47,831 nt of DNA from an uncultured Synechococcaceae cyanobacterium (GTDB lineage: Bacteria; Cyanobacteriota; Cyanobacteriia; PCC-6307; Cyanobiaceae). Numbering within the stretch: the first letter of the stretch is position 1; every line of letters starts with the position of its first letter. Under the pieces are notes generated by a model. That model ran no database searches. It saw nothing but the letters and a program-made list of their open reading frames with translations, and was not told the DNA's origin. Where the stretch lies: contig CACBAW010000003.1 in NCBI GenBank assembly GCA_902537275.1, forward strand, positions 1 to 47,831, in the 5' to 3' direction. This document shows, one piece after another, positions 22,688-23,707 of this stretch. The translations under genes and the position numbers were made by a program.

Positions 22688-23071
22688 TTAAAACATTTTG
22701 GATTTTAGTAAATCAACTCTTTTTTGATTCACTCCCAAATCACTATCTCCAACTCTTGATTCTGATCTTATTGATAAGATGTTTGATTCAGGTAAAAAGG
22801 ATACTTCTAAGTCGTCTACATACTTCATCCATTTACTGGTTGCCTCAGCATGAAGATAATCGCCATCAATTTCTACAATCTCAGTTCTTGGAGTGTTTTC
22901 GATAAATGTTTTAATCTCTTCAAAAGGTTTTTCAATATTATTTACCTCCCACTCTTCTCGTACACAATGAGCAATCTCTACACAAGGTCTTAGTTCTATA
23001 TGTGAGGCAAATGATGAAGAAGGGAATATAAAGCTTGAACAAATTAAAATTGCTAAAAAAAGTATTTGCAT
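22688..23071 (-). CDS. DUF1499 family exported protein
   Basis: 127 residues. A signal peptide (L-F-L-A-I-L-I-C-S-S-F-I-F-P-S-S-S-F-A-S) precedes a DUF1499 domain with P-C-V-E-I-A-H-C-V, I-D-G-D-Y-L-H-A-E-A-T-S, and the signature R-S-E-S-R-V-G-D-S-D-L-G-V-N-Q-K-R. Such proteins occur in chloroplasts and cyanobacteria; the biochemical role is unknown. Probably in the lumen or periplasm. Confidence 0.88.
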   Translation of the reverse strand: MQILFLAILICSSFIFPSSSFASHIELRPCVEIAHCVREEWEVNNIEKPFEEIKTFIENTPRTEIVEIDGDYLHAEATSKWMKYVDDLEVSFLPESNILSIRSESRVGDSDLGVNQKRVDLLKSKMF

Positions 23072-23199
23072 TAACAGAAGAATTTAACGACTTATAATCT
23101 AACTAATTTAATTACTAATTTGTAATGACGACCTAATTATTTTGTAAGTAAGCATATATGTTTTTATATTCAGAATTTAATATGCATTTCTAATAATCC

Positions 23200-23231
23200 A
23201 AAAAAAAAGATCTCTCAAAGAGAGATCTTTT
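23200..23231 (-). terminator. Strong intrinsic terminator on the minus strand
   Basis: A 12-bp perfect stem (AAAAGATCTCTC / GAGAGATCTTTT, 3-nt loop) followed on the minus strand by nine T. It ends the structured transcript from 23246-23330. Nothing on the plus strand needs it, since the nearest gene upstream reads the other way. Confidence 0.82.
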
Positions 23232-23245
23232 AAAATTGATTTAAA

Positions 23246-23320
23246 TTAAGTGTTTCCTTGTTTCCACTGAAATAAATCAATTCCTCCTACACACCACCCT
23301 AATATCACACCTAAATTCAA
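23246..23320 (-). CDS. Possible 24-aa peptide, TTG start
   Basis: The frame reads N-L-G-V-I-L-G-W-C-V-G-G-I-D-L-F-Q-W-K-Q-G-N-T after a TTG, with an in-frame stop four codons upstream of it. The composition (a short Gly-rich hydrophobic helix with Trp, then a polar end) is that of a small membrane peptide. There is no convincing ribosome-binding site. It may be a coincidental frame within a structured RNA. Confidence 0.3.
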   Translation of the reverse strand: MNLGVILGWCVGGIDLFQWKQGNT

Positions 23321-23370
23321 AATATGTAATGCTTAATAGACCTCTATCTTAACTGTCACATGGCAAAAAA

Positions 23371-23476
23371 TACAAAAAGTACTCAAACATCGAGGTCGAG
23401 TACTTTTAAAGTTATCAGAAAAAAGTGTGTGAGGAGTTTCTGATTTATTTAATTTACTCCGTAGGTAATTTAAAAG
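23371..23476 (-). ncRNA. Candidate sRNA carrying the Yfr1 core motif
   Basis: Read on the minus strand: a hairpin with stem ATCAGAAA / TTTCTGAT (23414-23444) displays ACTCCTCACAC (23427-23437), identical to the 11-nt conserved core of Yfr1. It is followed by a second hairpin, AAAAGTACTC / GAGTACTTTT (23375-23407), and a T-rich tail: a typical sRNA plus terminator. Upstream is a TATACT -10 element. In classical Yfr1 the core is single-stranded between two hairpins and the gene lies near trxA/guaB, which are not here; this one shows it mostly in a loop. The opposite strand would carry the perfect antisense. Confidence 0.6.
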
Positions 23477-23481
23477 GCTAC

Positions 23482-23487
23482 AGTATA
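23482..23487 (-). promoter_or_regulatory. Putative -10 element of the Yfr1-motif sRNA
   Basis: TATACT on the minus strand. Transcription would begin about 7 nt downstream and give an RNA of roughly 100 nt ending at the T-tract near 23371. No clear -35. Confidence 0.4.
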
Positions 23488-23560
23488 AATTACTAATTAT
23501 TTAAATCTTTAAGAAAAATTGGGCGTTGATGAAAAAAATAATTAAAAACATAAAATATTC

Positions 23561-23707
23561 ATGAAAAGTATTTACAAAAAAATTATTTTTATTATTTCGG
23601 CAATTGTTCTTTTTTCAGTAATAGTGGTTGTTGTCAAATATTCGCTTACTTATATTGAAAATAATCCCGATAAATACCTACCTACACAAAAGAAAGACAA
23701 AAATTAA
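23561..23707 (+). CDS. 48-aa single-pass membrane protein
   Basis: M-K-S-I-Y-K-K-I-I-F-I-I-S-A-I-V, one helix rich in Ile and Val, then a polar tail (E-N-N-P-D-K-Y-L-P-T-Q-K-K-D-K-N). Not identifiable, but in the same style as its neighbours. Confidence 0.5.
   Translation: MKSIYKKIIFIISAIVLFSVIVVVVKYSLTYIENNPDKYLPTQKKDKN

Follow-up and report, generated by a model that had tools for sequence, protein, structure and literature searches.

A Yfr1 core motif on a hairpin loop marks a probable yfr18-yfr5 locus in a relative of Prochlorococcus MED4

Introduction

Does an exact copy of the Yfr1 core motif that lies away from the yfr1 gene mark a second Yfr1-like RNA, and how would such an RNA act? 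The question arises from an initial annotation of a 47,831-nt stretch of a contig from an uncultured Synechococcaceae cyanobacterium (the whole stretch is referred to here as the window), which proposed a small RNA gene around this motif on the minus strand. We followed up the proposal with RNA folding, covariance models, comparison of genomes and published work on MED4. The features of the locus, and of related hairpins in other genomes, are collected in Table 1.

Table 1. Features of the locus in the window and motif-bearing porin terminators in relatives
Feature	Position	Strand	Basis or remark
Yfr10-family small RNA, orthologue of MED4 Yfr18	23363..23444 (Rfam-matched body)	-	RF02362 and synteny
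Yfr1 core motif ACTCCTCACAC	23427..23437	-	Exact match
Hairpin 1, motif shown in loop	23414..23444	-	RNA folding
Hairpin 2, followed by T-rich tail	23375..23407	-	RNA folding; not flagged by terminator scan
Conserved block TTTATACTGTA including TATACT	23479..23489	-	Alignment of orthologues; promoter role putative
Conserved block TGTGACAGTTA upstream of Yfr5	23350..23360	-	Alignment of orthologues
Yfr2-family small RNA, orthologue of MED4 Yfr5	23205..23294	-	RF01701; 5' end from MED4 mapping, 3' end from terminator
GTGTGTAGGAG, Yfr5 5' end	23284..23294	-	Complements motif with one bulged C
GGAAACA repeat, Yfr5 hairpin loop	23251..23265	-	Sequence
Yfr5 intrinsic terminator	23205..23231	-	12 pairs and T run
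Terminator hairpin behind porin gene (L110)	G107:C5:293671-293688
Terminator hairpin behind porin gene (L106)	G271:C11:20148-20165
Terminator hairpin behind porin gene (L117)	G106:C4:162351-162368
Terminator hairpin behind porin gene (L087)	G037:C12:5328-5345
Terminator hairpin behind porin gene (L118)	G010:C5:2972-2989		One mismatch

Results

The motif is an exact match to the Yfr1 core and the only copy in the window. None of 100 dinucleotide shuffles contained it, and the window's base composition predicts 0.005 copies over its own length and 0.11 over 971 kb of this genome, which upholds the claim that it is not a chance occurrence. It is also displayed on a hairpin as described: hairpin 1 has a 15-nt loop on an 8-bp stem; ten of the motif bases are in the loop, and the first, an A, belongs to the pair that closes the stem. 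The body at 23363-23444 folds at -18.3 kcal/mol (z -4.2), and none of 200 shuffles folded equally well. The initial annotation had further described a second hairpin with a T-rich tail and an upstream TATACT as a -10 element. Hairpin and tail are both present, but the terminator scan did not call a terminator there despite the tail. TATACT (23482-23487) is likewise present and within a conserved block, but the promoter scan gave no hit on the minus strand at this position, and the published MED4 5' end (972388) aligns approximately 25 nt upstream of it in an alignment read by eye.

A covariance search with the Rfam models identified two RNAs at the locus, both on the minus strand and above the curated cut-offs. 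The Yfr10 model (RF02362) scored 60.1 bits at 23363-23444 against a gathering score of 43, the Cyano-1 model (RF01701) scored 74.4 bits at 23229-23296, and the Yfr1 model (RF01116) had no match in the window. The sole RF01116 match of the genome is the classical yfr1 gene on another contig (C47:3305-3358), indicating that the window RNA is additional to Yfr1, as had been proposed. In Yfr10 the motif lies in a hairpin loop, and in high-light strains Yfr10 homologues are located upstream of Yfr2 homologues (Lambrecht 2019, PMC6778093). The window RNA has both properties: its first hairpin carries the Yfr1 core in the loop, and 66 nt beyond it, on the same strand, comes the Cyano-1 match.

The downstream RNA shows the model score, the repeat loop and the 5' complement of the Yfr1 core that characterize the Cyano-1 and Yfr2 RNAs, which we read, from the RF01701 match and the coordinates, as probably one group. 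It has in common with Cyano-1 and Yfr2 to Yfr5 the 5' GUGUGUAGGAG, the GGAAACA repeat loop and the terminator, and only its sequence has diverged; relative to the Rfam consensus one G is absent from its 5' tail, as it is from the tail of MED4 Yfr5. The terminator of this RNA, on the minus strand, is the only terminator-like site that the scan found in 23050-23650. The block TGTGACAGTTA, which precedes the Yfr5 5' end by about 60 nt, is a possible regulator site, because a GntR regulator reportedly binds yfr2 promoters. The GGAAACA loop repeat was described for Yfr2 to Yfr5 in earlier work (PMC1242208).

We next placed the locus by gene order. Around 968-976.5 kb, genome G015 is colinear with the window, and in both the locus is flanked by an 82-aa protein on one side and a DUF1499 protein (PF07386) on the other. 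Coordinates in G015 agree with those published for MED4: Yfr10 coincides at 346661-346738, the RF01701 match at 972111-972178 corresponds to yfr5 at complement(972088..972176), and ACTCCTCACAC at 1000771-1000781 corresponds to yfr1 at complement(1000744..1000797). From this agreement we infer that G015 is Prochlorococcus MED4. MED4 is reported to carry Yfr18 and Yfr5 at the corresponding place on the same strand (PMC2518516, PMC1242208), which together with the colinearity and the flanking genes identifies the window locus as the yfr18-yfr5 orthologue. Both RNAs were detected in MED4 by Northern blots and 5' RACE (PMC2518516, PMC1242208), and Steglich 2008 (PMC2518516) reported three related pairs, Yfr10-Yfr2, Yfr12-Yfr4 and Yfr18-Yfr5. 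The locus is therefore already known as the Yfr18-Yfr5 pair described earlier in MED4, and the finding is real but ordinary. What stands of the novelty first claimed is that a second RNA with the Yfr1 motif exists; that RNA already belongs to Rfam Yfr10 and by synteny is Yfr18, and its neighbour Yfr5 had been overlooked.

MED4 Yfr18, which is in RF02362, resembles the window RNA in place, strand, flanks, motif hairpin and neighbour, and differs by sequence divergence only, the spacer and second hairpin varying in detail. MED4 Yfr10 and Yfr12 have the hairpin stem, the motif loop and the place upstream of a Yfr2-type RNA in common with it, whereas they occupy other genomic places and their second hairpin is of another sequence that cannot be aligned in register. 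Yfr1 (RF01116) has the identical 11-nt core, but single-stranded between two hairpins rather than in a loop.

Both families are widespread in the genus. RF02362 was found in 96 of 121 genomes and RF01701 in 103 of 121, each in 39 of the 41 near-complete ones, and the bare 11-mer in 112 of 121 and in all 41, with yfr1 and chance copies included. A family-wide draw of 121 genomes under strict filters gave RF02362 in eight, five of this genus and three of other genera, one of these three above the cut-off. We then compared the 30 loci with the best Yfr10 scores and the 30 with the best Cyano-1 scores. Both flanking genes were present at 1 of the 30 best-Yfr10 loci versus 29 of the 30 best-Cyano-1 loci, the remaining Cyano-1 locus lying on a short contig with one flanking gene. 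In all 30 best-Cyano-1 loci CTCCTC precedes the loop by about 170-175 nt, and 29 have the exact 11-mer and 13-mer; among the best-Yfr10 loci an exact GGAAACA loop occurs in 25, and 21 of those 25 carry exact CTCCTC upstream.

Alignment of 34 orthologues showed that the motif is conserved across relatives, with 11 of the 13 columns of the 13-nt motif invariant, compared with 11 of 11 for the anti-motif and 23 of 66 for the spacer; since the set contains the 30 best-scoring orthologues, these figures lean high. The exact 11-mer is present in 33 of the 34 and the 13-mer in 32, the exceptions being L053, where the motif reads ACTCCTCATACAT and one stem pair is broken, and L072, where it reads ACTCCTCACACAT. 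Left out of the alignment were L070, from the same genome as L044, and L073, which has no exact loop match; L001, L002 and L074 duplicate the window. Among 57 Yfr2-type sequences, 44 carry GTGTGTAGGAG and 10 carry GTGTGAAGGAG; like the others, this set consists mostly of top-scoring loci and so favours conservation.

Covariation differed between the two RNAs. In the Yfr5 stem 92.5% of cells were paired and 124 cells had changed on both sides, values that none of 500 shuffles reached, while double changes in 9 of 16 pairs and 19 further pair types were reached by 31 and 414 of 500 shuffles, respectively. Two of the five measures are thus unremarkable, and much of the change in this stem may reflect one subfamily split. 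Covariation in the Yfr18 stems did not rise above the shuffled level (1 cell, reached by 258 of 500 shuffles) because these stems are nearly invariant, with 97.9% of cells paired (75 of 500 shuffles). Covariation of hairpin 2 between paralogues was not counted, these hairpins being out of register. A link to phage was also rejected: 23190-23520 had no match in a phage collection of 50,697 records, and viral contigs contained no exact 20-mer of the motif hairpin.

Discussion

The mapped 5' end of Yfr5, GUGUGUAGGAG, pairs with the loop motif in a duplex of -17.3 kcal/mol with one bulged C, a pairing that Steglich 2008 had already proposed and written out (PMC2518516). When Yfr18 is co-folded with Yfr5 the gain is 10.7 kcal/mol, which 4 of 300 shuffled 5' tails also attain; for Yfr1 with Yfr5 it is 16.1 kcal/mol, making Yfr1 the better partner by this measure. 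Lambrecht 2019 reports that Yfr2 binds Yfr1 and Yfr10 in vitro, that in E. coli Yfr2 relieves the PMM1121 leader of repression by Yfr1, and that Yfr2 titrates Yfr1 and Yfr10 (PMC6778093). We are highly confident that the locus is yfr18-yfr5 in a Prochlorococcus belonging to the MED4 genus, with two tandem minus-strand small RNAs that would neutralise each other. The upstream RNA would display the Yfr1 core in its hairpin loop and act in trans by base pairing with mRNAs, as demonstrated in MED4 for Yfr10 and presumed for Yfr18. Yfr5, starting with GUGUGUAGGAG, would pair with the same core, titrate both Yfr18 and Yfr1 and thereby release their targets, a role suggested here by the conserved complementarity.

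The targets and conditions of Yfr18 may resemble those of Yfr10, whose level rises 2.4-fold after one hour of darkness (PMC6778093). The initial annotation had suggested targets in common with Yfr1. This agrees in part with MED4, where Yfr10 and Yfr1 have only some of their targets in common (PMC6778093), and by extension it may hold for Yfr18. The case illustrates that a regulatory RNA can be recovered from bare sequence, and naming the locus adds the partner that had been missed. For the study of mutually neutralising small RNAs, the conserved pair offers a compact system.

Two other readings have to be weighed against this one. The plus strand of 23363-23444 folds too, at -16.2 kcal/mol, and a promoter-like TTAACA-16-TATAAT with 11 of 12 matches (plus strand, 23071-23098) points at both RNA genes, which would suit the antisense sponge, its loop pairing perfectly with Yfr1, that had been offered as an alternative from the letters. 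However, this site lies at the start of a minus-strand gene (22688-23071) whose leader could explain its conservation, and most of the 34 relatives aligned there read CATAAT, not TATAAT. With both Rfam matches and the only terminator-like site on the minus strand, and MED4 Yfr18 mapped to the yfr5 strand (PMC2518516, PMC1242208), a plus-strand sponge is extremely improbable, and the sponge of the locus is likely the neighbouring Yfr5.

Yfr18 could instead serve mainly to inhibit Yfr5, its partner on the same transcript, rather than to regulate mRNAs. A 270-nt precursor of Yfr10 and Yfr2 is reported in MED4, as are pieces of 76 and 29 nt for Yfr18 (PMC2518516), which we sum to a 105-nt gene, and binding of Yfr1 or Yfr10 shields Yfr2 from RNase E and neutralises it (PMC6778093). 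Nevertheless, pull-downs with Yfr10 enriched 253 mRNAs and the ppa mRNA was bound in vitro (PMC6778093), and MED4 Yfr5 has a mapped 5' end of its own (PMC1242208). We consider this role unlikely and retain the reading in which Yfr18 acts on mRNAs and is titrated by Yfr5.

The genome contains a third copy of the 11-mer (L075, G000:C32:1028-1038), antisense to the ferrochelatase (hemH) gene, which gives the hemH mRNA a perfect complement of the Yfr1 core. Of nine further copies from relatives, hand-picked among the matches listed, not one is at hemH, suggesting that the antisense copy is probably due to chance. For eight of these nine, at least one reading frame is open throughout the 91 nt inspected, and the ninth is a porin terminator.

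Searching relatives for GCAGCCCACTCCTCACAC with up to 3 mismatches gave 42 places in 40 genomes, of which 31 were inspected, the other 11 all having 3 mismatches. In 4 of the 266 genomes searched (G107, G037, G106 and G271), GCAGCCCACTCCTCACAC lies in a terminator hairpin whose loop shows the Yfr1 core, and a fifth (G010) has one mismatch, within the core; the other 26 inspected places had no such hairpin and no porin nearby. Each of the five hairpins follows a long open frame, 23-54 nt past its stop codon. The five encoded proteins are mutually 50-77% identical, and the roughly 40-nt hairpin of G107 is 89-95% identical to the others. For the G106 protein there is a match to NCBIfam por_somb (iron uptake porin) with an E of 1.9e-11, below the model cut-off, and none to a Pfam family. 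MED4 has two genes related to all five, with 29-38% identity, at 1065.0-1066.2 and 1068.3-1069.4 kb. The second is at the place given for PMM1121 by Steglich 2008 (PMC2518516), reported as a porin (PMC2897979) and a proven Yfr1 target (PMC6778093). A 10-kb stretch of MED4 around both genes contains no such terminator motif.

Directly before the start codon both MED4 genes have GTGTGAGG, and exact ATAGTGTGAGGCTAT stands just before the likely start in four of the five porin genes, the fifth having the Yfr1-type binding site GTGTGAG upstream; predicted Yfr1 binding at four start regions is -8.5 to -11.2 kcal/mol. The terminators themselves co-fold weakly, at -0.4 to -4.4 with Yfr5 (five cases) and 0.0 to -2.6 with their own start (four cases), by a method blind to loop-loop contacts, and this counts against strong action. 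Among the titles and abstract openings found, none names a motif in porin terminators; the observation may be new, and may be published even so. It is conceivable, though we think it doubtful, that the loop-displayed Yfr1 core moves as a module, carried by Yfr18 and, in a few relatives, also by porin-mRNA terminators. These terminators are the lead for new work: if the idea were true, the mRNA of a porin target would bear the motif of its own regulator and might act as a sink for Yfr2-type RNAs, through contact with its own start, or as the source of a Yfr1-like RNA derived from its 3' end.
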